DNA from: a virus
Reading direction: 5' to 3' (one strand)
DNA: 22,140 bases
Virus record (IMG/VR): IMGVR_UViG_3300042549_003888
Coordinates: 1 to 22,140 of that record
The position numbers and the translations under genes were made by a program. The notes under the pieces were generated by a model. The model was not told where the DNA came from. It made no database searches and was given only the letters and a program-made list of their open reading frames with translations. Below, one piece after another: positions 2,610 to 19,917 of this stretch (its first letter is position 1; every line of letters begins with the position of its first letter).

Positions 2610-3037
2610 TGTCCGACGCGTGGGTCTATGTCGGCGGGACATTTGACCTCTTCCATTATGGACACGCAAAGTTCCTCGAGCAGTGCAGCAAGCACGGCAA
2701 GGTCATCGTCTCGCTCAACACAGATGACTTTGCTTCCCGCTACAAGCGAGAACCAGTACTCTCCATCGGTGAGCGCATCGAGTCGCTTCGATCCTGCAAA
2801 TGGGTCAGCGACATCTGCGTCAACATTGGGGACGAAGACAGCGGCAGGACAATCGAAGGCCTAGGCGACAAGAACATTAAATTCATCGCCCACGGAGACG
2901 ACTGGTCTGGGGATTCCCTGCTAGAGCAGTTGGGCATCGACCAGGACTGGCTGGAGAGTAAGGGCATCAAGATGCTCTACGTCCCATACACGGCTGGCAT
3001 CTCCACCAGCGAGATTATCAAGAGGGTCCAAAGTTGA
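2609..3037 (+). CDS. Cytidylyltransferase, TagD/glycerol-3-phosphate type
   Basis: This 142-aa protein covers the whole length of a short cytidylyltransferase. Residues 9-19 (GGTFDLFHYGH) hold the HxGH nucleotide-binding motif (H16, H19). K46 and P49 lie in the substrate loop before GERIESL. HGDDW at 95-99 and ISTSEIIKR at 131-139 match the conserved HGDDW-like and IST.I motifs. The family moves CMP from CTP to a small phosphate acceptor such as glycerol 3-phosphate, releasing pyrophosphate. The true acceptor here is unknown; a sugar or ethanolamine phosphate cannot be excluded. The start overlaps the lysin stop by one base (TAATG). The glycosyltransferase downstream begins inside its stop, which suggests they work in one modification pathway. 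Confidence 0.88.
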   Translation: MSDAWVYVGGTFDLFHYGHAKFLEQCSKHGKVIVSLNTDDFASRYKREPVLSIGERIESLRSCKWVSDICVNIGDEDSGRTIEGLGDKNIKFIAHGDDWSGDSLLEQLGIDQDWLESKGIKMLYVPYTAGISTSEIIKRVQS

Positions 3038-3669
3038 AACTCGCAGTCATCATGACGATGTACAAGCGGCACGACAAGACGCTCCCGCTGCTTGATCGAG
3101 TGCTCAACTCCACCAAGGCCCCAGACGAACTCTGGATCATGTGCGAGGATGAGGATGACGTTTTTGTCGCCGAAGAGTCGCTGAAGGAACTGGGCAGGGA
3201 TGACATCAAGCCAATTCTCTGCCAAACCCCACGGAACGGCGAGCGCTACGCTCTAATCCCCTACTCCAACAAGATCAACTACGCGCTGGACCGCACCGAG
3301 GCCGACGCCATCGTCTACGTAGACAATGGGTCCATGCCATCAGAGCGTAAGTTCGAGGTTATGCTCCAGGCGCTAGTTGACAATCCCGATTGGGGTGCTG
3401 TATACTGTACGCAGCAGCGTACAGGGTATCGAGAAGAAACCCATGGTGCCGACAAAGTCGTCCAGAATGGACACGGCATCCTGAACTATACGCAAGTCAT
3501 GCACCGACCAACCACTGCGCGTTGGACCACGGACACGCGACATGCCAATCCAGATCTTGCAGATGCTATTTTCTGGCAAGACCTCGGAGGCCCGTTCTAC
3601 CCAGTAGACGAAACAAACATTCATGATGTTCATCATATGAACTCGGCTTCCGCCGAAGGAGTTATCTAA
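3034..3669 (+). CDS. GT-A glycosyltransferase (family 2-like)
   Basis: This 211-aa protein starts at TTG (TTGA overlap with the previous stop), with GAGGG at 3022-3026 seven bases upstream. The next Met, residue 7, would remove most of the first strand (KLAVIMTMYKR), so TTG is preferred. Residues 70-110 follow the GT-A layout: NGERYALIPYSNKINYAL, then DAIVYVDNGSMPS, where VDNG takes the place of the usual DxD metal site. A later ADAIFWQDL (177-185) resembles the acceptor-side region. The enzyme would transfer a sugar from a nucleotide-sugar donor; donor and acceptor are unknown. It sits between a cytidylyltransferase and the terminase block, so modification of virion or host envelope is plausible. 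Confidence 0.75.
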   Translation: MKLAVIMTMYKRHDKTLPLLDRVLNSTKAPDELWIMCEDEDDVFVAEESLKELGRDDIKPILCQTPRNGERYALIPYSNKINYALDRTEADAIVYVDNGSMPSERKFEVMLQALVDNPDWGAVYCTQQRTGYREETHGADKVVQNGHGILNYTQVMHRPTTARWTTDTRHANPDLADAIFWQDLGGPFYPVDETNIHDVHHMNSASAEGVI

Positions 3670-3968
3670 TGCCAAAGAGCGCCGCATGGCAACGTAAAGA
3701 AGGCAAAAACCCAAAGGGCGGTCTCAACGCCAAGGGCCGCGCTTCTTACAAGGCGCAGACTGGTGGCACGTTGAAGGCGCCAGTCAAGAGCGGGGACAAC
3801 CCGCGACGTGCTTCTTTCCTCGCCCGCATGGGCGGAATGCCTGGTCCAGAGCGTGACGAGAAGGGTCGTCCGACACGCCTGCTCCTAAGCCTTAAGGCTT
3901 GGGGCGCCAGCAGCAAGGCGGATGCCCGCGCTAAGGCAGCCGCGATCAGCAAGCGCAACAAGGATTGA
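3669..3968 (+). CDS. Small basic phage protein, DUF6321-like
   Basis: This 99-aa, strongly basic protein starts at ATG (TAATG overlap), with AAGGAG at 3656-3661 seven bases upstream. It is rich in Lys, Arg, Gly and Ala and holds the blocks NPKGGLNAKGRASY, RRASFLARMGGMPGP and RLLLSLKAWGASSKADA. I recall near-identical small proteins next to terminase genes in marine and freshwater phages, filed under DUF6321; this is from memory and was not searched. Its charge suggests nucleic-acid binding. Position directly before the large terminase would fit a DNA-packaging helper, but no function is established from the sequence. The terminase start lies inside its stop. Confidence 0.8.
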   Translation: MPKSAAWQRKEGKNPKGGLNAKGRASYKAQTGGTLKAPVKSGDNPRRASFLARMGGMPGPERDEKGRPTRLLLSLKAWGASSKADARAKAAAISKRNKD

Positions 3969-5464
3969 AGCAGGTCGACAGCGCAATTGCCTTTGACCTC
4001 GCACGAGGTCGTGGAGACATCGAGTTCTTCGCAGAACGTTGGCTCGGCATCAAGGGAAACCCTGGTCAGGTAGAATGGTGGAAAGCCTGCGCCGACCGCG
4101 ACGAGAGCGGGTTCAGGCCGAAGTACATCACCACGGTGGTGTCGGCAGGTAACCGAGCAGGTAAGACGCTTGCGATGGCTGTAGTCTGCTTCCATCACGC
4201 GCTCTACAAGTTGGGGCTGGCTAATCCTACCCCAGGCGACATGGAGTCAGCGCGGCGTTGGACAGATACCCCATACGAGTGGTACCATGTTGGCATCCAG
4301 CAGGAGACCGCAGAGTTGGTCTTCCGAGAGATCGAGACGATCCTCAATGGTGCCCACCCAGCCCAGAAGGGCCGTGGATGTCCTATCATCAAAGAACTCG
4401 GCAAGATCGTCGAGACCACCAAGAAGTATCGCGGTGAGTATCCGTGGATTAAGTTTAACTCCGTCGTAGGCGGGGCGAACATCCACTTCCGAACCACGCA
4501 GGATCGAGCCAAGGCTCTCCTCGGTAAGGACATGAACGGCATCTCGTTCGACGAGGCGGCGTTCGAGCCTCACTTGCTGATGATCTACCAAGAGGTACTC
4601 AACCTCCGACGACTCTCCACTGGCGGACCGCTCCACTTCATTGGGACGCCAACCGAGGGAATCAACGACTACTCCGACCTCTGGGAAAAAGGTAACCCAG
4701 AGAATCCAGAGAAGGACGAGAAGTTCATCTCCTTCCGACTCTCGACTCGGTCCAACATTGGGTACGGCCTAACGCAAGAAAACTTCGACGACGTTGTTCG
4801 GCAACAGGCTCCCTACCTAATCCCACAAAACATTGACGGTTACTTCATCGAAGCCAGGGATTCATTCTTCTGGTCGGTGTCAGTGCAAGCAGCATTTAGG
4901 AACGAAGTCGAAGAGCAAGGCCCGAAGCGCCACCATCGGTACGTCCAGGGCGTTGACCCTGGTATTTCACATGACGCAACCTGGGCCATTACGCTCGACA
5001 CTACGGACCGCCAGCACATGACTGGTACCCGCGTCCGCAAGCGCGGAGGCAAGCAGAGCATCTCAGCCGTGGTCAACATGGTACGAGAAGGACATCTGCT
5101 CTACAACGAAGATGGTGCGTCGGCAACGACCATCGTTGACTCGACTGGACTGGGCGGACGCCTCTTCCAGCAAGAGTTCAGCATCATCAGGCCGATCCGA
5201 GGTTTTGACTTCGGCGGCACAAAGTCCAAGAAGGTCGAACTTCTAAACGACCTGAAGGCAGTGATCGATAAGGGTCAGATCAGTTTCCCTGTGGGGGGCG
5301 CGTGGGACGAGTTGCGAAGGCAACTTCTCGCGTACAAACTAGACGATAAAAAGTTGGAACAGGACGCAGTGATGGCACTGGCAATCGCTGTACGTCATGC
5401 AATCCGCAACCCAGAGAAGCCCGTGAACGACCCAGTGTTCACATATTTTGGAGTGAGTGACTAA
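3965..5464 (+). CDS. terL: Terminase large subunit
   Basis: This 499-aa protein has the full large-terminase layout. The ATPase half has Walker A SAGNRAGKT (60-68), Walker B GISFDEA (192-198, D196-E197) and a coupling motif FIGTPT (225-230). The nuclease half has GVDPGIS (329-335, D331), VDSTGLGG (391-398, D392) and QDAVMALAIA (466-475, D467), the usual acidic triad. It drives ATP-powered packaging of DNA into the prohead through the portal and cuts the concatemer. The start is TTG in a TTGA overlap with the previous gene. The nearest in-frame upstream stop is 3932-3934 and the next Met lies beyond Walker A, so no better start exists. There is no good ribosome-binding site, so translation is probably coupled. 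Confidence 0.96.
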   Translation: MKQVDSAIAFDLARGRGDIEFFAERWLGIKGNPGQVEWWKACADRDESGFRPKYITTVVSAGNRAGKTLAMAVVCFHHALYKLGLANPTPGDMESARRWTDTPYEWYHVGIQQETAELVFREIETILNGAHPAQKGRGCPIIKELGKIVETTKKYRGEYPWIKFNSVVGGANIHFRTTQDRAKALLGKDMNGISFDEAAFEPHLLMIYQEVLNLRRLSTGGPLHFIGTPTEGINDYSDLWEKGNPENPEKDEKFISFRLSTRSNIGYGLTQENFDDVVRQQAPYLIPQNIDGYFIEARDSFFWSVSVQAAFRNEVEEQGPKRHHRYVQGVDPGISHDATWAITLDTTDRQHMTGTRVRKRGGKQSISAVVNMVREGHLLYNEDGASATTIVDSTGLGGRLFQQEFSIIRPIRGFDFGGTKSKKVELLNDLKAVIDKGQISFPVGGAWDELRRQLLAYKLDDKKLEQDAVMALAIAVRHAIRNPEKPVNDPVFTYFGVSD

Positions 5465-7719
5465 TGGCTGAAAAAGTACGAAAGATCCCCGCAGCGTTCG
5501 AAGGAACGCGGGCGATCCCAGCACAGTACACGACCGACCCAGATATTGCGACGCCAGAGCAGATCGCCTCTATTGGCACTGCCACCGACAAGGCACGCAA
5601 ACTAGCGAAGGGCCAGGTCATTGTTACAGCCCAGCCGAAGAGCAAGCCGTTGGCGACCGCGCCAGTTGGCACTTCGGCAACCCGACGCGCCCTGCGTTCG
5701 GCACGCACCCTCAGCAACGCTGGTGTCCAGAGCGGCACTGAGCGCGGCATTGCGGATCCATCACTCACCGTTCGCAACCGTGCTGCAACCAAGATCAAGC
5801 CAAACATCGAGCGCCTCACCCTTGGAGAGAAGAACTCCATTAAGATGCTCGAGTCCTCGCTTACTGGTCGAGCGGAGAACCCAGGCGAGAACGAGGAACT
5901 CCTCCTCCTCCAGGAGATCCTTGGTCGCAAGCAGATGGTCGAGCCAGAGCAGAATCGTCTCCGCTCGCTCTTCCGACGCATGGACAACCTCTACCACCCA
6001 GAGACCATGACCCTCGGTGGTGCAGACCACTGGGCAGAGGATCCAAGCGCACGCCTTGCTGGCCGCGCCCACGTCTCGGTCAACATCCACCACGCCTACG
6101 TCCAGATCCCTGCTGCCATTCAGGCAGTGCGTCCAGTCATCAACTACATCGCCACTGGCCCAACGCCAGAGGAGCGACAGACTGCGCAACTCCGAGAGCG
6201 ACTTTACTTCCGCTGGTGGGATGCCAACGACATGGACCTTACCCACGAGCATGCCGCACTCCTCAAGGAGTTGTACGGACACACGGCAGCCAAGGTCTAC
6301 TGGGATCCAGTTGCTGACCTGCCAAAGGTTTCGATCATCGAGCGCCCAGAAAACCTCTACCTCGGCTTCGGATCAAGCGACTACAATCGCCTAGATTGGG
6401 CCATCTACACCTACGGCATGTCGCCGCAGTCTGTACAGGAAGATTACGGCGTTGAAGTCATTCCTGTGAAGCAGGGAGAGAAGTGGTTCCCATACACCAC
6501 TCGTGGCACACACGCCGATCCAATCGGCAACGTTTGGATGAACAGTTTTGAGCGAAACCCACTTCGACGAGAGTCTGCCTACGAGCAGATGCAGATCGAG
6601 GTGTATGACTATTGGTACAAGGTGCCGACCAAGCCTGGCGATGCGCCGCTTGTGTACAACGCCATCTTCGTTGGCAACACGCTTGTTAAGAACGATCCAC
6701 ATCCTGAGTACCAGGGACAGATCCCGTACATTCACCTTCCAAACGGCAAGATCCCTGGCAGCCCATACGGCAAGCCAGCCCTCTACGACGCCGAACAACT
6801 CCTTCGCGAGAAGGACGAGCGGATCACTGCCATGGCGCAGATGATCCAATCCGTTGTCGGTGGACAGATGTGGCAGTTGGTCGGTGCCGAGGCGCCTGAC
6901 GAGGTTCCTGCTAATGCGCTGCCAAAGCCTGGACGCGTCGCCACACCTGGCCCTGGCAACGAACTCCGCGCCATCCAGCCGTTCATTCCTAACTTCCAGA
7001 TCGAGCAGTACATTGGGCGCATCGACCGCGAACTCGCGGTTGCTACGGGCCTCAATGACCTGCTCCTCGGTCTGGCGCCGTCGCAGGTGCTCGGTTCGTC
7101 CCGAGCCATCGCTGCGCTCATTGCTAACTACGAGGCACGCCTCGCTCCGAAGCGCAAGGTCTTCTACTCCTGGATGCGCCAGGTCTGGGAGATGTGCGCA
7201 CGTATCTGGGAAGTCAAAGACCCAGCGGTCAGGGAGATCATTGACGGCGAATACCGCATTGAGATCGTTGCCCCTGAGTTGACCCCTCGCGATACGCTTG
7301 AACTTGCTTCGACCGCGATCAACCTTGTTCAGAACCGAATCTGGAGCGCTGAGCGTGCTATGGATCGCGTGGGCGTGGAAGATCCAGTCGGCGAGAAGGA
7401 ACTCATCCGTGACGAGCAGACTGACGCAACGCTCAACCCGAGCGCTGTGGCCACGATGGCTCAGGTCATGAACATGATGAAGCAGATGCAGATGCAGGAA
7501 CAGCAGATGCAAGCACAGATGGGCGCCGCAAGCGACCAAATGGCGCAGGCTCAGAACGCTTCCCGCACGCAGAACCCGCCAGTCCCTGGAAGCCAGGCTC
7601 TAAACCAGCCAGAAAACCAGCAGCAGGCGCCAGCCGAGTCGCTACCAGCGAACGCGGCGGCTCCTGGTGAGCAGAATCTTCTCCCCGCTCCAACGGGGAC
7701 CAATGAGGTACCCGCCTAA
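5464..7719 (+). CDS. Portal protein
   Basis: This 751-aa protein follows terminase directly (TAATG overlap). Residues 205-300 show a portal body pattern: VSVNIHHAYVQIPAAIQ, a helical stretch with RLYFRWWDAND, then HTAAKVYWDP. Residues about 510-590 hold the typical crown-side element ATGLNDLLLGLAPSQVLGSS followed by a long helix with LIANYEARLAPKRKVF. Portals form the dodecameric ring at one capsid vertex through which DNA enters and leaves. The first about 165 residues are an extra, Ala/Arg-rich and probably disordered extension. The last about 100 residues are Met/Gln-rich and then Pro/Ala/Asn-rich. This makes the protein longer than most portals (about 450-600 aa). Confidence 0.9.
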   Translation: MAEKVRKIPAAFEGTRAIPAQYTTDPDIATPEQIASIGTATDKARKLAKGQVIVTAQPKSKPLATAPVGTSATRRALRSARTLSNAGVQSGTERGIADPSLTVRNRAATKIKPNIERLTLGEKNSIKMLESSLTGRAENPGENEELLLLQEILGRKQMVEPEQNRLRSLFRRMDNLYHPETMTLGGADHWAEDPSARLAGRAHVSVNIHHAYVQIPAAIQAVRPVINYIATGPTPEERQTAQLRERLYFRWWDANDMDLTHEHAALLKELYGHTAAKVYWDPVADLPKVSIIERPENLYLGFGSSDYNRLDWAIYTYGMSPQSVQEDYGVEVIPVKQGEKWFPYTTRGTHADPIGNVWMNSFERNPLRRESAYEQMQIEVYDYWYKVPTKPGDAPLVYNAIFVGNTLVKNDPHPEYQGQIPYIHLPNGKIPGSPYGKPALYDAEQLLREKDERITAMAQMIQSVVGGQMWQLVGAEAPDEVPANALPKPGRVATPGPGNELRAIQPFIPNFQIEQYIGRIDRELAVATGLNDLLLGLAPSQVLGSSRAIAALIANYEARLAPKRKVFYSWMRQVWEMCARIWEVKDPAVREIIDGEYRIEIVAPELTPRDTLELASTAINLVQNRIWSAERAMDRVGVEDPVGEKELIRDEQTDATLNPSAVATMAQVMNMMKQMQMQEQQMQAQMGAASDQMAQAQNASRTQNPPVPGSQALNQPENQQQAPAESLPANAAAPGEQNLLPAPTGTNEVPA

Positions 7720-10514
7720 TGGCACGACGAGGACGATTCACCAATCCTAACGCTGGCGGTCAGAACCTTAGTTCCCTAATCGTTTCGCTCCTTCGCGAAC
7801 GAAAGAACGCTGAGGAGCAGTTGCTGCTAGAAAGATTCCGCAACAAGGAAGTTAGCGCGGAAGAGGTCCAGGCATTCTACGATAACTGGGCGTCTACTTC
7901 TGGCTTCACTGAGGGTACGCTCGAGTTTGATCAGTTGAACCAGCGCAAGAAGAACGCGTACGATACTGGTATCAAGTACCGATACGACGAATTGCTTGCA
8001 GAGTTTAACAGCAACGGCGGAAAAAATTACTCGGAGTTGATGGACTTCCTCAACGGAACAGCCCAAACGGTCAACGACAAGAATAACGCCCAGCAATACT
8101 TGGACCTGCGCAAGAGCATTACGAACAACTTCATCAACGAGGCATCAAGCCAGTTGCAAATGGGCCAGATGACGATTGATGAGTTTAGGTCGCAAGTTGA
8201 CGCTGGAATTAACTCATCCTTTGCCAAGGGTTCCAAGGAGTACAACGACTCTAAGTACGCAGCCTTTGTTGCTGAATACAACGGAGAGTACACCAAGTAC
8301 CAGAACCGAATCAAGGCTGGAAAGAGCGGAGCATACTCTGGCTTTGTTAACTTCCTAAACCAGATGAAGAGCCGAATGTCCACAGAGGGCATTGGTGGGG
8401 AACTTCTTACGCGAATTGACGCGGATATTGTTTCGACCAGGGCATCTGGCGCTGCCGCTGCTGGCGGAGCACAAGTTGACAGGGTACTTAAGTCACAGGG
8501 AATCCTTTCGGAACTATACGCAGAGGCCTTGTCGACAAGTGGAATTATGGGGGCAGAGTTGACTGCCGAAGACATTGCTGCTGGGAAAACCTACTCAATC
8601 GCTAACATTGCAAATAATCCAGGCGCACTAGAGACCTGGATTACCATGATCGAGAATGGCACTGCTCAGATTGACGCAGAATTGGCAAAAAAGTACGACA
8701 TTGACAGCCCAGACGACATTCGCAGAATTCTGGACGTTGAAGTACGAAGTATCGAAGTTGCTGGCGCTGCCGCAAATCGCCTAAACCCTACTGAGAATAA
8801 CGCAGCATGGGCATCACTTGGCAAGACCCTTTCCCGAACGATTGGTAGCAGAACCCTAGTTGACGATGTCTCCGAGGGGATGAACCAGTACGCATCAGAC
8901 CTCCAGAGGGCTGGTGCATCTGGTGACGACATTGCTATTGCACGAGCAACCAGCGAATGGCAGAAGTTCTTGGCTGGTCAGAAGTCAGCGTATGGAGAAC
9001 TCCAGGGAGATGCAAACCGAGGCCTTACTGGTCGTCAGGTTCTTGACGAGCAACTTGCGACCTACGGCGTATACGGAACTGCCTTTAAGGCTGCATTGTC
9101 CAATACCGAAAAGGGAATCGCTGGGAACGTTCTTGGAGTTGGTGACCAGACGCTAGAGGACTTCTTCCAGGTGCCTGCTGGGTTTAGCGGCGATGGCGTA
9201 GTGACATTCGGTGCAACCTACTCCAACGGAAGCATCCCAGAAACACTAAGGAACTACGACGACCTAGTAAGCGGACGTAAGGTTCAGGTAGTCACAAGGA
9301 ACCCACAGACTGGTACCGTTACTAAGGTAACAACTGACCCGATTGCTGTTGGTCCAAGTGGAAGACTTGGTAACACTCAGATTGCAAGCAAGGATGGCGG
9401 ATACCTTTCGGTCATTGCGTACGTTGACGGGCCAAACGGAGAAAGAGTTCCAGTTATTCAATCTATTAAAGCAAGTGGTACAATTCAAACTGCTGCTGGT
9501 ACGGCAACCACAACGTGGGGATACCAGTACGAAATGGAAAGCGGCAAGGTAGTTTACGTCTCTACCAGTGGTCAGGCGTATGACGAGAATCCATTTGACA
9601 AACCGCCAAGGCTTCTGGAGGGCGGCGTTTACTTTGTCGAGGGCGGAACCTCTGGTGGCGCTCAACCGCTGAAGTCAGCACCATCAATTGACATCAACTC
9701 GGCTCTGAATGGCGCCGATCCAAAGTCGTTTTACGCACTGAACCAAATTGCCGAAGGACTTACCAAACTAGTCGGAGAAAACTCTGAATGGTTGCAGACT
9801 CTTGGCGCTGTTGACCGAGCAAACATTGTTGGTGAGATTGGCCAGATCGAATCAAAAGCCAAAGAGGCCCAACTTAATAGCACACAGATTCTTCTTAGGA
9901 ATGCTACGCGACAGGGAGCAGACTCTAATTATATCCGTAGCCTACAGGCACAAATTGTCGAACTGAAAACTGGTGGTTCCCAGGTAACCCAGTTTAATCT
10001 TGTTCGGGAAAATTCCCAGAGTTACGAAGAGATTGAGCCAGGTCTCTACAAGTTGCGACAGCCAACTGGACCAGGGGGAAGTGTTGGTGGATACGCTCTT
10101 GGGTTTGGCCAAGACTACAATATCGACGAGCAGGGAAGGGAACTTCCAGATGTTGTCGACATCAGAATTCAGGCTCCAAAGCCAACCCCAGGAATTACGG
10201 GTGCTGGATATTCACCATATCTTGCTAACGCTATGGCTTTGCAAGGTTACAAACCTGGAACCCAGAAGTCACCAGACTTCTTTAGGAATACTCCAGCAGC
10301 AGCGCCAGTCAATTCTTCGTACCTGGCATTGGCTGGATATGCTGGGGGAGCGCCAACAACTCCAACCGCTACGGCACCAGCGCCAATTGTTCCAGCGGCT
10401 ATGACTCCGTTCGTTGCCGATGATCGAGAGGCTAGGCGAGCACTAATTGCCCAACAGAGCCAGACAACGCCGCCGCCACCAACAGTTAAGCCATTCCGTA
10501 TTGGAGGTCGCTAA
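7719..10514 (+). CDS. Large structural-region protein of unknown function (931 aa)
   Basis: The family was not recognised. The start ATG overlaps the portal stop (TAATG); GAGG at 7705-7708 is a modest ribosome-binding site. Residues 1-400 are mostly helical. Residues 39-113 and 145-216 appear to be two divergent copies of one unit, each with an acidic helix, a G(T/S).E(F/Y) element and an ending near (M/V)(D/N)FLN. Residues about 480-660 are rich in Gly, Thr and Val and look beta-rich. Residues about 820-931 are Pro/Ala/Thr-rich and probably disordered. There is no signal peptide or clear membrane helix. Position between portal and an even larger protein suggests a virion component, perhaps an internal or ejected protein. 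Hand GC counts of about 48-53% in several 60-nt lines are lower than in the portal gene. Confidence 0.85.
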   Translation: MARRGRFTNPNAGGQNLSSLIVSLLRERKNAEEQLLLERFRNKEVSAEEVQAFYDNWASTSGFTEGTLEFDQLNQRKKNAYDTGIKYRYDELLAEFNSNGGKNYSELMDFLNGTAQTVNDKNNAQQYLDLRKSITNNFINEASSQLQMGQMTIDEFRSQVDAGINSSFAKGSKEYNDSKYAAFVAEYNGEYTKYQNRIKAGKSGAYSGFVNFLNQMKSRMSTEGIGGELLTRIDADIVSTRASGAAAAGGAQVDRVLKSQGILSELYAEALSTSGIMGAELTAEDIAAGKTYSIANIANNPGALETWITMIENGTAQIDAELAKKYDIDSPDDIRRILDVEVRSIEVAGAAANRLNPTENNAAWASLGKTLSRTIGSRTLVDDVSEGMNQYASDLQRAGASGDDIAIARATSEWQKFLAGQKSAYGELQGDANRGLTGRQVLDEQLATYGVYGTAFKAALSNTEKGIAGNVLGVGDQTLEDFFQVPAGFSGDGVVTFGATYSNGSIPETLRNYDDLVSGRKVQVVTRNPQTGTVTKVTTDPIAVGPSGRLGNTQIASKDGGYLSVIAYVDGPNGERVPVIQSIKASGTIQTAAGTATTTWGYQYEMESGKVVYVSTSGQAYDENPFDKPPRLLEGGVYFVEGGTSGGAQPLKSAPSIDINSALNGADPKSFYALNQIAEGLTKLVGENSEWLQTLGAVDRANIVGEIGQIESKAKEAQLNSTQILLRNATRQGADSNYIRSLQAQIVELKTGGSQVTQFNLVRENSQSYEEIEPGLYKLRQPTGPGGSVGGYALGFGQDYNIDEQGRELPDVVDIRIQAPKPTPGITGAGYSPYLANAMALQGYKPGTQKSPDFFRNTPAAAPVNSSYLALAGYAGGAPTTPTATAPAPIVPAAMTPFVADDREARRALIAQQSQTTPPPPTVKPFRIGGR

Positions 10515-13500
10515 TGCCAATTAAGGGTCTAGGACCATCATCTCAGGCTTCGGTCGGCCCACAGGCTGACGTACCAACGAGGCCGCTGGGTGGAGCAGCA
10601 TCAAACCTGTCCACGATGGGCAAGTTTAACCTAGACATTACAAAGCCAGCCGAAAGCCTTGGCGGTACTGCCGAGGGATTTGCTGGTGGCATTCAGGCTG
10701 TCGGAAAGGCTGTGGTCAGCGTTGTCGAAAACATTCCAATTGCTGGTCTTGTTACAAAGCCAGTAATTGGCGCCGTGGGTGCGGTTGCTGACGCAACTGT
10801 AGGTCAGGTCGTCAAGGGAATCTCATCTGGTCCAATCGGCAAGGCTGCAAATGACGCCGCTGGTTTTGCGTTTAATGTAGCAACTCTTCCGCTACAGGGT
10901 GCCCTTAAGGTACTTACCGTGCCAGGACAGGAACTCGCGAAAAAGGCCATGGAGGCCCGAATTAAGTCCACCGCTATGGGCAAGAAGGACATCGCAACGT
11001 TCCTTTGGTCCGAGGCTCCAAGGGACGCGATTCGTCGGTATAAAGATGGTGAGTCAGCAGAAGATATTGCTGCCGACTACGTTGGCCAGTTTGGTATTGG
11101 TGAAGCAAGTAAGGGAGCCTACAGCCAGGATGCGCTGGCTAACTTCCTGTGGACTATGTTGCTAGACCCAATTAACATTGTTCCAATCACTAAGCCATTC
11201 ACTGTTGGAGCCAAGGCCGCTCGTCTTTCTGCCGCTGGTGTAGATGGGCTTAATGCCGCAGCGAAGATCGCCAAACAGGATGCTTCCGCAGCACTTAAAC
11301 TGGGGAACAAGGAACTTGCAAAGAGGCTAACTTCAGAGGCTACACTCCGAGCAGAGGAAGCCGTCTTCCTGCAAAAGTACGACTGGGCTGGAAAGATGTA
11401 CACCGCAACCTGGGGCAAAGTTGCAGATAAGTGGTCTCAGGTGACTGGCGGTCGACTGAGCAAAGAACTTGCACAGCAGCCAGAGCGAATCGTCGGTGGC
11501 AAGGCAACCACTGCAATGCTTGACGAACTTACCGCCACCACTGGAAAGCAGAACGTAGATGAGGCACTGGGAAACGCCGTCCTAACCACCGTCAACGCAA
11601 ACAAGGCAGCCGTAGCCGAAACGCTTGTAAGCACGCAGCGAAACGTCTGGCGTGCCTCCAGCCAGAACCTCGTCAAGACCCTGTACGCCGCTATTGGAAC
11701 TGGGTCGAAGGGCGCTGACTCGCTTCTTGCCGTCCAGTACGGCAGCGAGAGGACCATTAAGGACTTCCTCACTGACCTTGGATACTCCAGCGCAGACCAG
11801 GCTCGGATCGTCACCGCTGTGGAGAATGCCTACACTCCAACCGTTAAGGCATTCTATGGCAGCGACGCTGTTGCCAAAGTTTATAGCGAACTAACCGATG
11901 TTATGTCCCGAATCGACGTGAAGGCTCGACCAGACTTCTACGTCAATGCCGCCGAGGCGCTTGGTAAGTCCAACCTTCGCTATGCCGTTGACGCTGGCGT
12001 TGAACTCATCCAGCGAAACAAGTTGAACCTCATCCGCTTTGCAGGAGACGAGACACAGTTCGTCGACTACCTAAGCCGAACGTTGCAGTTCGGTTTCAGG
12101 GTTTCCGCCGACAAAGCCCAGGAGATTGCACGAAATCAGTGGGCAAAGAACGCTGGAAATACCAGAGACCTTCTGAATCTTCTCGAGACTGGTCGCATGG
12201 CTGCGTTCGGTCGCTCGATGCGCGAGATTGCGCTGGAGCGCGCCAAGGAGTCCGACGGGCTTGCTGCTATTGAGAAGGCCGCCGCTGGGCGACACGAGGC
12301 TGTGGCAAAAGCGTACTTCCCAGAACTTTCAGGAGAAGAAGCGATTGCCGTCGGTAAACTGTTTGACCAAGTGGCGATTACTGGCGCGGCTCGAGAAGGC
12401 TTGACGCCCAACCAGTGGTACGCCAAGTACACCTATGGTGTCTCTGGACTGAGCGAAACAGATGCTGCCGTATCGCTCGTCGACGAACTCTACAGCACAA
12501 CGGAGTTGACTAAGGCCGCGTTCAGGGAGGCAAAGACCCCTGCCGAGATCCTTGAAGTTGCAAAAACGATTAAACCAACCAAGCGCATGGTTGATGCTGG
12601 TCTTGGTGGCCAGTTGGCAGTTGAAACGGTTGATACGGCCAAGGGAGCATTTGCTCTCCCTGGAGGAACTGCCGCACTCGACGATCTAACGCCGTACAAC
12701 ATCATTGACGAGGTCGTTATCGCCTCGCAACCTTACGAAATCATTGAGGCCTTGCCTGGAGACATTCGGGTAAAAATGCACTTAAAGATGACTGCCTCAA
12801 AAAGCATTGACATGTCCGATCCGATTGCCGTGGCAAACAGGGTTGTGTTCTCCTTACTATCACCTCGTCGCAATCTGTCTGGAAACGCTGCCGTATATCA
12901 GGCTCTACGAATTCGTAACGCGGATGATCTTGCAGCATTTGTCGAAAGGTATGGCAACGATGTTAAGAATCTTCCAAACCTCGACGCTGGAGCATCTGCT
13001 CGACTTGGCAAGAGGATTGCCGAGGACTTTGGCTTCGACATGGGAGCAAAAGATGGAGATGTGACTGGGATTATCTCCCACTTGTCTGACGCCGCAAGAG
13101 TCCTAGTTCTTGCAAAAGAAAACCCTGAATTCTTCCTAATTAAAAATGGCGAAAGCCTAACCCAATTTGCCGAAAGGTTGACACTTCTTAATGGCGTGCA
13201 ACTTAAGGTCGGATCGTTTGCTGTAGAGTTGATGCGAGCATCCGACGCAGCAGTCGGCGCTATTGATGCCCAGATGTCTGGTGGTGTTCTTAAATGGGCT
13301 ATGGACAACGGTATTGACGGTAACCTTATCAAGGAACTCCGAGACATCGGTACTAAGGAATCAAATAAATACGCAGACGAACTGGAGTCTCTGATCCCAA
13401 GGCTTAAGGCTGGGGAGAACGTGTATGGTCCTAGCGCCAATGGAGCAGAGTCAACTTTGGGACCAAAGACTATTGATGGATCAAACGCCAGTCCATTTAC

Positions 13501-16500
13501 CAAGGCTTCGGTAGGAACACTTCCAAACTGGTCAACTACTAAGGCGACATCTGCAAAAGTTACCTTGCTAGAGGGAAGTTCTTTCAAGGTCATGAACAAG
13601 TACGTTAGCATGATGGCAGACCAGTGGTCAACCGTTGGGCGAATTGCAGATAACGGAGAAAGAATCGTTTACACTGGGCTGGACAAGATGTCTGGAGGAC
13701 AAAAGCAATGGTTTATTTGGGATATTTTCCGAAAGCAGTTGGAGCCACACCAGTGGCTACATCGAGATGCTGATAAGTTGGCAAAGCCAACTATTGATCA
13801 GGTTCGGAATGCGATTTCCTCAATTCGTTCTTCTGGTGGGTTCACTACTAAGAGGCAGTTTGATGGCGTAGACCCACGCGTAATGTCCGAGTTCCTTGAG
13901 GAGCGCGGCGGTCAGGTACTTGGCAAGGCTAAGTTCTACCGCAACGGAAAGTCAGCAATCGAACTCTTTAAAGGCGCAGACGTCACGACGGCGATCCACG
14001 AGATCGGCCACATCGGACGACGACATCTCTCCGATGTTGATCAGCAGGTCGTCCTCGAGGTTTATGGTGCCAAGGGTGGCTGGACCACAGAACTCGAAGA
14101 GAAGTTTGCCAAGGACTTTACTAACTACATGTACACTGGACGGGCACCAACGCCTGGCCTAGTCGACCTATTCAGCAAGATCCGTCAGTTCATGGCAGAC
14201 CTTTGGTCCAAGGTAAGCAAAACCGAGCAGATTCACCCAGAACTGCGTGACGTCTTTGATCGCATGCTGAGCCACAACGGCCCACAGCCGCTGCCAGATG
14301 CAGACACGTGGTCGCGCATTACGCTCATCAGCGAGCGAAGCCTAACTCAGAATGCACGAGACGCCGTTTTAAAGCGCGTCGGCATGATCCTTGGCGAGAC
14401 CGACGGTAGCGAAACGCTCCGCTCGGTCGATGACGCCGCAGTAGATCTGACGCAGCGCATTGACGACGGTGTGGTCGTTCGTGGCGACGGCGCAACGTTC
14501 AACCCAATCCGAAACACGGTTCAGGTTGCTGGTAAGGACTTTGGCTTCATGAACTCACCATTCCTGAGTCGAAGCGTTGTCCTGAAGGGTGCAGACCGAG
14601 AGCGATTCCTTACGGACAAGGCGTTCCAGAAAGAAGTCCTCGGCAAGTACCTCAAGAGCAACGAGGATCTACTATCACTCGACAACCACTACATCGGGCT
14701 TTATGATGACGCCAAGATCGACACGTACTACATCGATGTCTCGATTAAGTACGACAGCGTCCAGGAAGCAATCGAGGCTGGTACTCGAGCGCAGCAGCAG
14801 TCGGTATTCAGGCTCAACGACTACGGCAAGTACTTCCTAGACACGCCGCTTGGTCGACTCGGGGCAGAGCGGGAAAACGCAAAGATCACTCGATCCGCAC
14901 TAGACATCAGCCCTGGCGAGATTGAGAAACTGAGCAAGCCTCGCATGGGTGCTGATCAGTTGGAATCCGCGCTCCGACCAATCGCTGACGAACTTGTCGA
15001 GAAGTACGATGACGTTGCTGCGGTCTGGTGGAACAAGGGCGGCTCTGCTGCTGACATCGTTGACTGGGTACGAAACCACCCAGAGATCACCGTACGAGAA
15101 CTAACGGAGACCGAGGCTCGGCTCTTGCCAGACGGGTTCAAGGCCCGACAGGCTGACATTGCCCTCGGAGGCTACCGATACGGCGTTGCCCCCAAGGGCG
15201 GCATCATCGAGCGCACCACTCGTGTGTCCGATGGGTTCGGCGGTACCCGAATCGCAACTTCAGCGCAACCATTCGTCGACCTGCTTGACACGACGGCAAT
15301 AAACAAGTTGGATGAGGTAACCGCTGGTGTCAATAAGCGTCGCGGATTCCTCGACAAGTTCAGGGACAACATGACTCGCGAGTACGGACCTGACGTGGTC
15401 AGGACGAACTACGTCGAGCGATTCGTCACCGACATTACCAAGAAGACCATGATCACCGCACGAGAGGCTGAGATCATCTTGGCCCGCGTCGGCAACCTTG
15501 CCGCACGCAAGGAGACCACGATGCGCGGCCTGTGGTTCGAGCGCGATCAGGTACAGACGATTTTCCGCGAGGTGCTCGGTGACGCCGAGTACTTCAAGTA
15601 CATCGAAAACAATGATCCGCTCACTGACCTCTTCACTGCTGCTGCTGGCGACGTAAGCGTCGTCGGCCTGCTTCCTGGCTTCAGCGGTCGGGCCAAGGCG
15701 TGGAAGCCCGTTATGGGCGCGGTCACCGACCGTGCGTTCCCGCTCTTCCGCTTCGGTAAGGGCAACCCGTTCTTCCGCCAGATCCTTGAGCCAATCGAGA
15801 CCAAGATGATGGGCCTGATCGACAGGATTAAGGCTGATCAGGTCGATGAGTTCCTCGGCGACAAGCCATCGAAGTTGGTCCGCCGAATGACCGAGGACAG
15901 CCGATCAGTAACGAACGAGATCGCCGAGTCCGTATTCTATGACCAGGAGAAGGCCGCAGTCGCTGCAATCTCCGCAGTACGCGAGAAGCCAGCATTCAAC
16001 AATGCCGTGTCTCGAGTGCTCAAGGCAAAGGGCGCGATCAAGGACGGCGTCTGGGCGATCAATAACCCAGAAGAGTACAAGTTGATGATCCGCGACATCA
16101 TGGCATCCGAGTGGGCCGTGAACGAGATGTACGACCTCCTTAAGAAGGCAATGCCAGAGACATTCGAGCAGTTCGCTGAGGCTGGCCTCACCGACGGTCG
16201 AACCGTCATGGCTCGCATCCTTGAGGACGGCATGATCCAGTCTAGCCCAGAGGCATTCGCTGCGGTACTCCGACGCGATGCTGGCCCGACCATCGGGCTA
16301 TGGGGCAGGGCACTTGCTGAATCTGGCATCCCTGAGTCGAAGGCTCGAGAAATCGCAGCCGCCGCCCACGGTGTCTTCACTGACGCCATGATCCGTGGAA
16401 CGCGACGTGCCAACAAGTACCAGTTCTTCAGTTCCTACCGCTCATGGTTCGAGCGTTCGATCAACCATCCGTTCCTCGGAATCTACCCGTACTCGTACAT

Positions 16501-16954
16501 GACGCAGAAGGCGATTCCGTGGATGCTCAAGATGATGTTTGCTCCGAAGATCGCTGGACACGTCCGACCTGGATTTGGGTACATCAATGCCATGCGCCTG
16601 CAAGAGGCACTCATCGTTGATGCCAACACAGACCGTGGATTCATGACGTCCGTCGCAGAGGCACGACCTTTGTGGTATGCTTTGAACATCATGGTTCCCG
16701 CGACGCCCACGAACCTGGGCTTCGCCGCTCCGTACTGGCTACGCAAGGGCGTCCTCGAGCCAGCGCAGCGCAACCAGCCGCTCACGTTTGAGCAACTTTC
16801 CAAAGTTCCGCCACTTGTTGGCGAGACCATCATGCGCGGCACCGTGCTCGGTCAAGGTGCTGCACTCCTCGGCGGCGTTGGCGCTCTAGGCAACGCAATA
16901 GAGGAAGACCTGAGCGACATCCAGGTTGATGTCAACAGGTTCTTTAATCCGTAA
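10514..16954 (+). CDS. Giant multidomain phage protein with HEIGH zinc-protease motif (2146 aa)
   Basis: ATG start with GGAGG at 10503-10507, six bases upstream. Residues 45-150 are Gly/Ala/Val-rich with hydrophobic stretches (AVVSVVENIPIAGLV, KPVIGAVGAVADATV) that could insert in membrane. Residues 150-1100 are mostly helical and unassigned. Residues about 1118-1250 look like a zincin: IHEIGH with H1162, E1163, H1166 and a downstream ELEEKFAKDF with a candidate third ligand (E1195/E1196). Residues about 1330-1445 (GFMNSPFLSRSVV, NHYIGLYDD, QQQSVFRLNDY) recall a small domain seen in MuF-type proteins of actinophages. Residues 1960-2010 (RSWFERSINHPFLGIYPYSY) begin an aromatic-rich end module. 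Sited after portal and before scaffold, where minor head proteins are encoded, it is probably virion-packaged and may be ejected into the host; a tape-measure role is less likely there. Confidence 0.85.
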   Translation: MPIKGLGPSSQASVGPQADVPTRPLGGAASNLSTMGKFNLDITKPAESLGGTAEGFAGGIQAVGKAVVSVVENIPIAGLVTKPVIGAVGAVADATVGQVVKGISSGPIGKAANDAAGFAFNVATLPLQGALKVLTVPGQELAKKAMEARIKSTAMGKKDIATFLWSEAPRDAIRRYKDGESAEDIAADYVGQFGIGEASKGAYSQDALANFLWTMLLDPINIVPITKPFTVGAKAARLSAAGVDGLNAAAKIAKQDASAALKLGNKELAKRLTSEATLRAEEAVFLQKYDWAGKMYTATWGKVADKWSQVTGGRLSKELAQQPERIVGGKATTAMLDELTATTGKQNVDEALGNAVLTTVNANKAAVAETLVSTQRNVWRASSQNLVKTLYAAIGTGSKGADSLLAVQYGSERTIKDFLTDLGYSSADQARIVTAVENAYTPTVKAFYGSDAVAKVYSELTDVMSRIDVKARPDFYVNAAEALGKSNLRYAVDAGVELIQRNKLNLIRFAGDETQFVDYLSRTLQFGFRVSADKAQEIARNQWAKNAGNTRDLLNLLETGRMAAFGRSMREIALERAKESDGLAAIEKAAAGRHEAVAKAYFPELSGEEAIAVGKLFDQVAITGAAREGLTPNQWYAKYTYGVSGLSETDAAVSLVDELYSTTELTKAAFREAKTPAEILEVAKTIKPTKRMVDAGLGGQLAVETVDTAKGAFALPGGTAALDDLTPYNIIDEVVIASQPYEIIEALPGDIRVKMHLKMTASKSIDMSDPIAVANRVVFSLLSPRRNLSGNAAVYQALRIRNADDLAAFVERYGNDVKNLPNLDAGASARLGKRIAEDFGFDMGAKDGDVTGIISHLSDAARVLVLAKENPEFFLIKNGESLTQFAERLTLLNGVQLKVGSFAVELMRASDAAVGAIDAQMSGGVLKWAMDNGIDGNLIKELRDIGTKESNKYADELESLIPRLKAGENVYGPSANGAESTLGPKTIDGSNASPFTKASVGTLPNWSTTKATSAKVTLLEGSSFKVMNKYVSMMADQWSTVGRIADNGERIVYTGLDKMSGGQKQWFIWDIFRKQLEPHQWLHRDADKLAKPTIDQVRNAISSIRSSGGFTTKRQFDGVDPRVMSEFLEERGGQVLGKAKFYRNGKSAIELFKGADVTTAIHEIGHIGRRHLSDVDQQVVLEVYGAKGGWTTELEEKFAKDFTNYMYTGRAPTPGLVDLFSKIRQFMADLWSKVSKTEQIHPELRDVFDRMLSHNGPQPLPDADTWSRITLISERSLTQNARDAVLKRVGMILGETDGSETLRSVDDAAVDLTQRIDDGVVVRGDGATFNPIRNTVQVAGKDFGFMNSPFLSRSVVLKGADRERFLTDKAFQKEVLGKYLKSNEDLLSLDNHYIGLYDDAKIDTYYIDVSIKYDSVQEAIEAGTRAQQQSVFRLNDYGKYFLDTPLGRLGAERENAKITRSALDISPGEIEKLSKPRMGADQLESALRPIADELVEKYDDVAAVWWNKGGSAADIVDWVRNHPEITVRELTETEARLLPDGFKARQADIALGGYRYGVAPKGGIIERTTRVSDGFGGTRIATSAQPFVDLLDTTAINKLDEVTAGVNKRRGFLDKFRDNMTREYGPDVVRTNYVERFVTDITKKTMITAREAEIILARVGNLAARKETTMRGLWFERDQVQTIFREVLGDAEYFKYIENNDPLTDLFTAAAGDVSVVGLLPGFSGRAKAWKPVMGAVTDRAFPLFRFGKGNPFFRQILEPIETKMMGLIDRIKADQVDEFLGDKPSKLVRRMTEDSRSVTNEIAESVFYDQEKAAVAAISAVREKPAFNNAVSRVLKAKGAIKDGVWAINNPEEYKLMIRDIMASEWAVNEMYDLLKKAMPETFEQFAEAGLTDGRTVMARILEDGMIQSSPEAFAAVLRRDAGPTIGLWGRALAESGIPESKAREIAAAAHGVFTDAMIRGTRRANKYQFFSSYRSWFERSINHPFLGIYPYSYMTQKAIPWMLKMMFAPKIAGHVRPGFGYINAMRLQEALIVDANTDRGFMTSVAEARPLWYALNIMVPATPTNLGFAAPYWLRKGVLEPAQRNQPLTFEQLSKVPPLVGETIMRGTVLGQGAALLGGVGALGNAIEEDLSDIQVDVNRFFNP

Positions 16955-16992: not shown

Positions 16993-17008
16993 AAGGAGAA
17001 ATGCTGTG
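16993..17008 (+). promoter_or_regulatory. Ribosome-binding site that selects the GTG start of the scaffold gene
   Basis: AAGGAG at 16993-16998 lies seven bases before GTG 17006-17008. An ATG at 17001-17003 is only two bases from it, in another frame, and meets a stop after seven codons. The spacing therefore decides for GTG. Confidence 0.8.
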
Positions 17009-17557
17009 GCTGAAGAAGTCGTGAACAGCACCGAAGTCCAGTCGCCTGAGGTGGCCCCCGAGGTCGCCCCGACCACTGAGAACGAGGGTGACGTCACCAC
17101 TTGGAAGAAGCGCCTAGCAGGTAAGGATCAGGCACTAACCGCAACCAAGAAGGAACTTGATGACCTCAAGTCCCAGGCTGCGGAACTCGCTCGCTGGAAG
17201 GCGGAGCAGGAGCAGTCCTCGATGACTGAGTTCGAGAAGGCGCAGGCGCGTATTCGAGAACTGGAATCGAAGGCTGCTGCTGTCGAGGCTGCGGCACGCG
17301 AGGAGCGCCTAGCAAAGGAGTTCCCACTCGCTCATCAGTTTCAGAAGGACACAAGCGGTCTGGATGAAATCTCACGCATCGCTGCGCTAGAGAAGTTCAT
17401 CCGCGACGCTGCCGTGGCCACTGCCCCTGTCGAGTCGGAGCCAGCGCCAGTAGATCCAAATAATGCGCGACGGGCAACCGCTGCGCCAATTGTCAAGCCC
17501 GATTCCAAGAGTATCAAAGAGAAACTCGCGGCATTGGGAAATCCATTCGCTGAGTAA
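17006..17557 (+). CDS. Capsid scaffolding protein
   Basis: This 183-aa acidic, Ala/Glu/Lys-rich protein lies just before the major capsid gene, the usual place for a scaffold. Residues 1-30 are acidic and Pro-rich. Residues about 31-100 are strongly helical and probably coiled coil (KKELDDLKSQAAELARWKAE and RIRELESKAAAVEAAA). A Pro/Ala linker (about 135-160) leads to a short C-terminal module SKSIKEKLAALGNPFAE, which may be the capsid-binding tail common in scaffolds. Scaffolds guide capsid assembly and leave or are cleaved before packaging. No protease domain is visible in this protein. Assignment rests on position, size and composition more than on sequence identity. Confidence 0.82.
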   Translation: MAEEVVNSTEVQSPEVAPEVAPTTENEGDVTTWKKRLAGKDQALTATKKELDDLKSQAAELARWKAEQEQSSMTEFEKAQARIRELESKAAAVEAAAREERLAKEFPLAHQFQKDTSGLDEISRIAALEKFIRDAAVATAPVESEPAPVDPNNARRATAAPIVKPDSKSIKEKLAALGNPFAE

Positions 17558-17573
17558 AGGAGTAGCATAAATG
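17556..17573 (+). promoter_or_regulatory. Strong ribosome-binding site of the major capsid gene
   Basis: AAAGGAG at 17556-17562 overlaps the end of the scaffold stop and lies eight bases before ATG 17571-17573. It is among the strongest initiation signals in the window, as expected for the most abundant virion protein. Confidence 0.8.
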
Positions 17574-18542
17574 GCTACCACAACGACCAGCACTACGGGT
17601 TTTGCAGCCCTCGTACAGGAACTTGTTTCTGCCCGAGCGCTCGAGGAACTCCGCGCACGTGCTGTACACGCGATGCCAGGGCTTTACGTCCCTGCTCGCT
17701 TCATTAAGGGCACGAACACCCTCCGCTACGCTCGTTACGCTGACCTCGCGGTCAACACGACGCCGCTTACGGAAGGCGCCCCACCTACTGACCAGGAACT
17801 GACGATTTCGTCCGAGTTCTTTACTGCTGTGCAGTACGGCTCGACGGTCGCAATCTCCGACCTGGCCAACATTGACTCGCCACATGACCTTGTCAGCATT
17901 GCTGCCGAGCGTGTAGCGTATCAGGCAGTTCGCTCGATGGACCAGATCGTCCGCGATAACATCCACAGCACCGCTCTCACGAGCGCTGTCTTTGGTGCTA
18001 CCGCTTCGGGCACGCTGACCCAGAACGCCGCCAACAGCGCAGTTGCTGCTGCTGGCCTCCTGAACGGTGCCTTTGTCAAGCAGATCGTTGCTCGACTTAA
18101 GGGTGCCAACGTTCCTCAGTTCGCTGATGGCACGTATCGCGCAATCATCCATCCTTCACAGGAGTATGACTTGATCAGCGATACGGCTGTAAACGGCTGG
18201 ATCGAGTCGCGCAAGTACGTGAACAACACCGACCTGCTTACGGGCGAAATCGGTATGTTCGCTGGCGTGCGCTTCATCGTGTCTTCGGACGCCAAGGTCT
18301 ACGCGACCGCTGGCGCTTCGTCAGGCAACGTGTACGCCGCAACTTTCCTTGGTCCTGACGCCTACGCAATTGGCGACAGCCAGACCCTCCAGTCGTACTT
18401 CGTTGCGCCTGGTGGTGACCACACCGACCCACTCGCACAGAAGGCGTTGGTCGGTTACAAGATGCGCTTCGGCTCCCTCCTCCTCGATGAGGCAGGCGCT
18501 CGTTATCGCATCGTCAAGACCCAGGCTACGGTCGGAGTCTAA
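17571..18542 (+). CDS. Major capsid protein, N4-gp56-like HK97 fold
   Basis: This 323-aa protein has the pattern of the N4-gp56-type major capsid family. An N-terminal helix (LVQELVSARALEELRARAV) leads to VPARFIKGTNTLRYARYADL. Next come LTEGAPPTDQELT and a long spine-helix region with VAYQAVRSMDQIVRDN (about 112-127). Later FADGTYRAIIHPSQEYDL (184-201) and GEIGMFAGVRFIVSSD (226-241) are typical of the central fold. About 323 aa is within the usual size for the family. It assembles into the icosahedral head around the scaffold. No N-terminal propeptide is obvious. The gene ends 18 nt before a very stable hairpin, which suggests that transcription is set separately here. Confidence 0.92.
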   Translation: MATTTTSTTGFAALVQELVSARALEELRARAVHAMPGLYVPARFIKGTNTLRYARYADLAVNTTPLTEGAPPTDQELTISSEFFTAVQYGSTVAISDLANIDSPHDLVSIAAERVAYQAVRSMDQIVRDNIHSTALTSAVFGATASGTLTQNAANSAVAAAGLLNGAFVKQIVARLKGANVPQFADGTYRAIIHPSQEYDLISDTAVNGWIESRKYVNNTDLLTGEIGMFAGVRFIVSSDAKVYATAGASSGNVYAATFLGPDAYAIGDSQTLQSYFVAPGGDHTDPLAQKALVGYKMRFGSLLLDEAGARYRIVKTQATVGV

Positions 18543-18548
18543 TCGGTT

Positions 18549-18597
18549 AGGGCGCCGATACCCCCGCCTGGTCCCATGGACTGGGCGGGGGAGCCCT
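18549..18597 (+). terminator. Strong hairpin after the major capsid gene
   Basis: CCCCCGCCTGGTCC (18561-18574) pairs with GGACTGGGCGGGGG (18578-18591) around a CAT loop. This gives 14 continuous pairs, two of them G-U type. An outer stem AGGGC (18549-18553) with GCCCT (18593-18597) adds five pairs. There is no T tract after it, so it fits the stem-only terminators common in high-GC bacteria or a transcript-stabilising end. It begins seven bases after the capsid stop. Confidence 0.72.
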
Positions 18598-18605
18598 GCT
18601 AGAAT
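18577..18605 (+). promoter_or_regulatory. Candidate sigma70-type promoter overlapping the hairpin
   Basis: TGGACT (18577-18582, four of six matches to TTGACA) is followed after 17 bases by TAGAAT (18600-18605, five of six to TATAAT). The bases TGC just before make it an extended -10 (TGCTAGAAT). The -35 element lies in the right arm of the hairpin. It would give a leader of about 70 nt ahead of the GT-B gene. Short promoter matches arise by chance, so confidence is moderate. Confidence 0.45.
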
Positions 18606-18652
18606 CAACGGAGAGGCCTGCCAGACGAGCAAGGAGCCTCGAAAAGGGTCAG

Positions 18653-18684
18653 GGTGGTACCTAGATACCCCCAGAGGGTCGAAT
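18653..18684 (+). promoter_or_regulatory. Leader hairpin and ribosome-binding site of the GT-B gene
   Basis: GGTGGTA (18653-18659) can pair with TACCCCC (18666-18672) around a six-base loop, with one mismatch. AGAGGG (18673-18678) follows at once and lies six bases before ATG 18685. A stem abutting the ribosome-binding site could modulate translation. The nonamer GATACCCCC occurs here (18664-18672) and at 18557-18565 by the capsid hairpin. Confidence 0.3.
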
Positions 18685-19917
18685 ATGCTGAAAGTCCTAG
18701 TTTGGGGACACGTCGAGGACGGTCCTTGCGCCTACTTCCGTGGGCACCAGTTCACCGAGGAACTCAAGAAACTCGGAGTTGAATACAGAGGACTGAACAA
18801 GGTCAATTTCAACGTTAAGCCTGGCGGCGAAAAGATGCTAATGCCAGAAGCCTTCAATAAGGGATTCATTGAGTTCGACTCCACGGACGTTGACTGGGCT
18901 GACGTCGTGGTCTTCCGACGATATTACAACACAACGCTCTCCTGCGTGGATGAGAACTGCCCATTTGTTACATTTTCGTATCCTGATGCAATCAACCATC
19001 CGCATGGTTGGAAGGAACGAGACCTCATTACCCGCCTGCTCTGGCCAGCATTTAGATTTGCTGCCCACAACAAGGCGATTGTCTACGAGACCGACGACGA
19101 CCACTTCAACATCAAAGACTGGAACGGCTACAAGAAGGACGTCCTTCCAGAATTGTCGATGATTGAAGAGATGGCCCAGCGTGCTGATCTGGTCACTACA
19201 TCAACAGATGTTATCGCAAAGCGCTACGCACGATTTAACGACAACATCAGGGTTATTCGCAACGCGGTTGACCCAGAACTCTACAAGGCAACTGCCGAGC
19301 GCCCAGTATCGGACAAGCCGCGCATGGTGTACTACGGTAGCACCGCTCGCATCCGCGACTACGCTGGGTTCCCAGAGGGTCCACGCGGCAAGATCGTTGG
19401 CGGATACGCTGGCAAGGCAGTCGAGGATCTCAAGAAAGAGATGACCCGCGTCTTCATCGGCGTTAATCCTGGAACCGAAAACATCATTACCCCGCTCTTT
19501 GACGAGCAGGTTCCCTACGTAGAAGGCATCGCCAAGTTCTGCGAGACGCTTGCGAACAGTCACCCAGACATCGGCATTGCGCCGCTGATGGGCGACGACT
19601 TCGACCAGGCCAAGTCAGAACTTCACTGGTTGGAATACGCCATGGTTGGCGGTGCGTTCATCGGAGAACGAATGCGTAACGGTGGACCCTACGAGGTAGT
19701 CCGAGACGGCGTTGACGGACTGCTTGCCCGTGGTCGTGGCGAGTGGTACGAGGCGATGAAGAAATTAACACGCAGCAAGGATTTGCGAGAACAACTCGCA
19801 GGTGCGGCGCGTGAGCGTGTGCTAAAGGAATATCACTACAAAGATCGAGCAAAGGAATGGGCTGACGCCTTCAAATGGGCAGCCGAGAATAAAGGCAAAG
19901 GAGCCAAGATCGCATGA
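18685..19917 (+). CDS. GT-B glycosyltransferase (family 4-like)
   Basis: This 410-aa protein starts at ATG 18685. The frame is open further upstream through the capsid gene, but MLKVLVWGHVEDGPCAYFRG is a natural first strand, so this start is chosen. The N-terminal half has VDWADVVVFRRYY (69-81) and IVYETDDDHFNI (132-143), as in GT-B acceptor domains. The C-terminal half has RVIRNAVDPELY (189-200), RMVYYGST (213-220), DIGIAPL (295-301), LHWLEYAMVGGAFIG (313-327) and GGPYEVVRDGVDGLL (333-347), the donor-binding pattern of family 4. It would move a sugar from a nucleotide-sugar donor. It stands between capsid and adaptor genes behind its own candidate promoter, so glycosylation of the virion is a reasonable guess. 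The next gene overlaps by four bases (ATGA). Confidence 0.88.
   Translation: MLKVLVWGHVEDGPCAYFRGHQFTEELKKLGVEYRGLNKVNFNVKPGGEKMLMPEAFNKGFIEFDSTDVDWADVVVFRRYYNTTLSCVDENCPFVTFSYPDAINHPHGWKERDLITRLLWPAFRFAAHNKAIVYETDDDHFNIKDWNGYKKDVLPELSMIEEMAQRADLVTTSTDVIAKRYARFNDNIRVIRNAVDPELYKATAERPVSDKPRMVYYGSTARIRDYAGFPEGPRGKIVGGYAGKAVEDLKKEMTRVFIGVNPGTENIITPLFDEQVPYVEGIAKFCETLANSHPDIGIAPLMGDDFDQAKSELHWLEYAMVGGAFIGERMRNGGPYEVVRDGVDGLLARGRGEWYEAMKKLTRSKDLREQLAGAARERVLKEYHYKDRAKEWADAFKWAAENKGKGAKIA

Follow-up and report, generated by a model that had tools for sequence, protein, structure and literature searches.

A HEIGH motif lies from base 13997 within a 2146-aa protein encoded among the head genes of a virus contig, which raises the question of whether a metalloprotease is built into that protein and, if so, what it would cut. 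The window, meaning the whole stretch of 22,140 bases that was analysed, is a virus record comprising an entire contig and represents a 22-kb fragment of a genome. The domain type, its occurrence in giant phage proteins, and its proposed roles are already in print (PMC3650047, PMC5512222). What is new is the conserved terL-portal-p931-giant-scaffold-like-MCP setting of the module in this clade.

The giant gene within a conserved head block

The genes of the window run in the order terL, portal, p931, giant, scaffold-like (183 aa), major head protein (MCP), glycosyltransferase, a 214-aa protein, and Dit-like (Table 1). From terL through the giant (3965-16954), successive genes share one base, and each junction reads TAATG. 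These one-base overlaps suggest that portal, p931, and the giant are translated in a coupled manner, and with the gene order they link the giant gene to those two upstream genes. The block is kept in nine related contigs (L002-L006 and L012-L015), with L014 and L015 being near-copies of one phage. Homologues of portal, p931, and the giant were found in 9/9 and of terL in 8/9, and the scaffold-like and MCP genes have homologues in all seven of these contigs whose stretch extends that far. In each of the nine, the giant homologue lies between portal/p931 and the scaffold-like gene. With portal on one side of the giant gene and the scaffold-like and MCP genes on the other, the head-region location claimed in an earlier note on this DNA, made from the sequence alone, was found to hold.

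Table 1. Coordinates of the head-block genes and of the features within the giant protein
Feature	Position	Strand	Basis
Large terminase (terL)	3965..5464	+	phrog_2, E 5.5e-17; stop overlaps portal start (TAATG)
Portal	5464..7719	+	phrog_156, E 4.1e-09; stop overlaps p931 start (TAATG)
p931, 931 aa	7719..10514	+	homologues in all nine related contigs; stop shares a base with the giant start (TAATG)
Giant protein, 2146 aa, bearing the zincin module	10514..16954	+	ORF; homologues in nine related contigs
Variable stretch preceding the module, residues ~931-1030	13304..13603	+	lowest conservation mid-protein; high dN vs L002 and L005
Zincin module, residues ~1132-1254	13907..14275	+	phrog_9880, residues 1130-1253, E 2.7e-15; model
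HEIGH, residues 1162-1166	13997..14011	+	invariant in A2 (37 rows) and A6 (87 rows); model helix 1157-1170
E1196, likely third metal ligand	14099..14101	+	invariant in A2 and A6; model helix 1192-1208
Scaffold-like protein, 183 aa, charged/coiled on reading	17006..17557	+	probable, from composition and from preceding MCP
Major head protein (MCP)	17571..18542	+	phrog_1357, E 5.2e-42

Queried as DNA, the region matched nothing in the phage collection, and a tblastn search of terL against named phages gave no match, while the same search with MCP reached 52 records, every one below 60% identity. The Dit match falls under the curated score (PF22768, E 8.8e-05; phrog_202, E 7.5e-06), and this sub-threshold sequence match makes long tails likely. 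Genes that may modify sugars of the virion or the host flank the head genes at 2609-3666 and 18349-19917; one is cytidylyltransferase-like, another matches glycosyltransferase 2 weakly, and the third is the glycosyltransferase gene. The start assigned to the ORF at 18349-19917 falls inside MCP and is probably too far upstream. A 99-aa gene at 3669-3968 carries DUF6321 (E 9.8e-25), a domain that in PHROGs is also found C-terminally in several longer phage families.

A zincin-type module in the giant protein

HEIGH is the sole HExxH of the 2146-aa protein, for which the composition-expected number is 0.0063, and 116 of 20,000 residue shuffles contained any HExxH. The motif is short, and HExxH is reported to occur often by chance, with many such occurrences (PMC3650047). 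Taken alone it is modest evidence, and the case rests on conservation. This was evaluated in two alignments, A2 and A6. The second drew on a set of at least 120 matches to the Glu helix only, chosen without regard to HExxH. Among the 120 matches listed, 95 had HExxH within 75 residues; 75 of these were retained after spacings above 60 and cut ends were excluded, 61 after near-duplicates were removed, and 60 were used. A further 27 of the 37 A2 rows were included, while the other ten were removed manually as near-copies, truncated rows, or rows with long inserts; each of them has HExxH. Rows L016 and L124 are one contig, so that the 87 rows of A6 represent 86 distinct places.

The only residues invariant in A6 are H1162, E1163, H1166, E1196, and P1212. 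The Glu helix that the earlier note had described some 29 residues past the motif is present as ELEEKFAKDF, in which E1195 and E1196 stand 29 and 30 residues past H1166. Either glutamate had been offered as a ligand. E1196 occurs in 87/87 rows, while the E1195 position holds Glu in only 17/87 and His in 57/87; we therefore rejected E1195 and take E1196 to be the probable third ligand. The T1203 position is Glu in 79 of the 87 rows, a departure of the window clade. Homologues lacking the second histidine had been named as a sign against a protease, and they were looked for in both sets. A6, which was partly selected on HExxH, has no row that lacks this histidine. In the Glu-helix-only set, five of the 120 listed matches had fewer than 75 residues upstream and were hence not assessable; among the 115 assessable matches listed, HExxH was found within 250 residues upstream in 111, HExxxH in one, and neither in three. 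The spacing from the second His to the Glu among the matches listed ranged from 29 to more than 200 residues. Insertions of more than 200 residues separate HExxH from the Glu helix in L072, L112, L164, and L174, and L140 has HEFTGH, an active site of the HExxxH form, which has been described (PMC5512222).

A tblastn search with the 130-aa domain reached 22 of 50,697 phage records and 2 of 72,556 plasmid-collection records, of which 11 and 1, respectively, were examined in detail. When ORFs from the window and from L002-L050 were searched with a profile, 50 copies emerged, one per source and all with HExxH (50/50); L002-L050 are relatives that had been gathered in part by a pattern that includes HExxH. 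A scan of genome contigs gave at least one relative. All 87 A6 rows match phrog_9880. Pfam showed nothing above cut-off in the giant protein, and Pfam and PHROGs together showed no second known domain. The Pfam families M48, M78, M3, and others were not used: even at E <= 0.1 none matched more than 3 of 37 members, and the match of the window row was below cut-off. NCBIfam gave no match for the window row, and M3_fam_3 and mod_HExxH matched two rows each. Sequence searches of the PDB found no credible relative. Within the clade, the module is strongly constrained, with dN/dS of 0.022 vs L003 and 0.037 vs L005, and the C-terminal part of the giant is about as constrained. The variable stretch at residues 931-1030 reaches a dN of 0.81 vs L005. 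In more distant pairs, dS is nearly saturated.

An AlphaFold model of residues 1100-1262 was built from A6, with a mean pLDDT of 80 and block means of 86-96 at model residues 41-140. Strands were predicted at 1137-1141 and 1147-1151, followed by the HEIGH helix, a helix at 1174-1184, the E1196 helix, and a helix at 1214-1234. The predicted core is confidently zincin-like, with its elements in zincin order and two strands seen. Foldseek gave no PDB match for this trimmed model at E <= 0.001 and six matches in the viral library at the same threshold, three of them unnamed and the others annotated as ART-PolyVal-like, crystallin motif-containing, and large polyvalent protein associated. A second structural comparison placed lethal factor chains first (best Z 5.0, rmsd 4.1 over 85 residues, model residues 33-124), tied with a globin-domain row at Z 4.8 and followed by phycocyanins at ~4 and PPEP-1 at 3.6; the Z values of this comparison are weak by the tool's own note. 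We take the lethal factor and PPEP-1 rows to represent family M34, and the likeness to these gluzincins (the catalytic part of anthrax lethal factor, PPEP-1) is a weak structural match with no sequence match. An earlier model covering residues 952-1337 had a mean pLDDT of 55 and was of poor quality. Foldseek gave no match for it at E <= 0.001, and in its second structural comparison phycocyanins ranked first (best Z 4.1); gluzincins, ACE among them, scored Z ~3.

The module thus has the identity of a known domain with four conserved residues, H1162, E1163, H1166, and E1196. Conservation and the predicted structure support a zincin-type domain of the gluzincin arrangement, with HExxH on one helix and a Glu, the likely third ligand, on a second one, as the earlier note had proposed. 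By analogy, H1162 and H1166 would be metal ligands and E1163 the general base. A chance HExxH in an unrelated helical protein was rejected as highly improbable, given the shuffle rate, the model, and the fact that the H, E, and H of the motif are conserved along with E1196.

Relation to Bbp10-type giants and other phage proteins

The module is of the Bbp10 type (phrog_9880), with 134 profile columns aligned at E 1.4e-19 and both the HExxH and the Glu helix shared. Giants of both kinds are ~2000 aa or more. When the profile of the window clade (8 rows) was compared with that of 11 Bbp10-type giants (8 from named phages and 3 from contigs), the module alone aligned. In slices, the module gave E 5.1e-30, while the best of four flank comparisons gave E 0.0087 with a probability of 4.6%. 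Outside the module, hhalign of the flanks thus detected no relation to Bbp10-type giants, and either the module was transferred among unrelated giants or the flanks have diverged past detection.

Gene setting also differs. Bbp10-type genes follow tail genes and lie behind internal virion and lysozyme-type genes, whereas the window giant lies between portal/p931 and MCP. An endolysin, lysozyme, or lysis protein is annotated directly upstream of the giant in 8 of 11 phage records (BPP-1, CP2, Ab9, Carin1, PfDIW6, Jess A, AF, and HU1), while 7 of 11 have an annotated internal virion protein close upstream (BPP-1, vir555, CP2, MD07, Ab9, PfDIW6, and AF). Pfam and PHROGs scans found no confident family for p931, so the lysozyme that neighbors Bbp10-type giants was not seen at that position. 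Bbp10 carries LPD22 and PBECR1, and Pfam found neither in the window giant. In L019, ART-PolyVal is in the same chain as the module; the locus (L019:6548-20386) is a 4613-codon open frame running to the locus end, with zincin, ART-PolyVal, and RNase H-like domains. The 2,986-residue gp16 of OANV1 also resembles Bbp10 (PMC9239159).

Residues 700-1000 of Bbp10 were a seed of CLCA_X, a zinc-protease family predicted in 2013 (PMC3650047), and this seed stretch includes the module. The CLCA_X consensus is HExxHxxxD (PMC3650047), whereas the window has R1170 in place of the Asp, four residues past the second His. At this position the A6 rows have mostly Glu (46) or Arg (18) and Asp in 3/87, and Bbp10 itself has Glu (HESGHFFLE). 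Since the consensus Asp is absent, we did not file the module under the CLCA_X consensus.

According to a 2017 description, no domain is more common in polyvalent proteins than zincin metallopeptidases (MPTases) (PMC5512222). As in the window, these have an HExxH helix and a Glu on the next C-terminal helix, and they occur in phage giants with portal-terminase genes. They are reported to have a three-stranded sheet with an N-terminal and two C-terminal helices (PMC5512222), while the window model has the helices and two strands. Polyvalent proteins hold several unrelated domains per chain, as do the relatives Bbp10 and L019; in the window giant, Pfam and PHROGs found none besides the module. 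The module could not be assigned to any of the 12 MPTase clades of PMC5512222. N4 vRNAP, whose C1 domain has HExxH (PMC12633501), and P1 DdrB are packaged phage proteins with HExxH domains. Their active-site stretches align with A6, but there is little likeness past the motif (hhalign probability 12-13%). The passages and search listings consulted showed no activity assay for a protease of the Bbp10 type, though one may exist; PMC10386132 gave nothing about a protease.

What the module may act on

We give a probability of roughly 0.45 to the reading that the module is a gluzincin in a packaged and delivered giant, most likely cutting its own polypeptide. Within residues ~1132-1254, H1162, H1166, and E1196 would hold a metal and E1163 would activate water. 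The giant would be made along with portal and p931, would enter the head, as its gene position suggests, and would be delivered with the DNA. The module would cut the polypeptide that carries it, in cis or between copies, freeing parts before or after delivery. The invariance of E1163 matches that of the three putative ligands, which argues for catalysis, and the module is kept while its carriers differ, which would suit a protease whose substrate travels with it.

Published analogies point both ways. Polyvalent MPTases have been proposed to self-process or to act on host proteins, and P1 DdrB is processed before packaging (PMC5512222), both of which favor self-processing. Against it, N4 vRNAP is packaged unprocessed despite its HExxH domain (PMC5512222), and in P1 it is the prohead protease Pro, and no protease belonging to DarA, that cuts the packaged DarA (PMC12810830). 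The DarA result points to a separate protease doing such work in P1, and we hold our confidence no higher partly because of it. The lack of a PDB Foldseek match at E <= 0.001, the globin tie, the two strands, and the lack of a second known domain also count against the reading as far as models and domain scans can tell.

The host option of PMC5512222 would make the module an active protease delivered into the host for the early cutting of a host protein, either a defence or an envelope target. It accords with the effector-like domains that Bbp10 and L019 bear in the same chain, but Pfam and PHROGs found no other effector domain in the window giant and no target is known; we regard it as unlikely and rank it after self-processing. 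More doubtful is a metal-binding or structural domain with no protease work in the virion cycle. The HExxH-domain region of N4 vRNAP is needed for encapsidation even though the protein is packaged unprocessed (PMC5512222), which would fit such a role, yet a purely structural metal site has no need of a general base, and E1163 is kept as strictly as the ligands.

Ranked last of these roles is a head-maturation protease that cuts scaffold or capsid protein in assembly, which we consider improbable. The giant gene occupies the interval between portal and MCP in which many phages encode their prohead protease, and the window ORFs scanned with Pfam and PHROGs, from a 22-kb fragment, contained no prohead protease family. 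Equally improbable is the fuller form of this idea, in which the zincin of the portal-co-translated 2146-aa protein in this Dit-encoding clade would cut scaffold and itself and replace the prohead protease. Speaking against head maturation, sequence reading shows no long N-terminal extension on MCP, the scaffold-like gene stands in front of it, and in BPP-1 an annotated protease gene, bbp18, adjoins MCP although Bbp10 holds the module; with the window a fragment, a separate protease gene may also lie elsewhere in the genome. Cleavage of the capsid, a function that the earlier note had considered, becomes less likely given the form of MCP, the coiled scaffold-like gene that precedes it, and the presence of the module under other gene orders.

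The window places a known protease module in a new setting, a conserved head block and a giant with no detected relation to Bbp10-type giants outside the module. Were the module active, giants of this kind would amount to cargo that processes itself.
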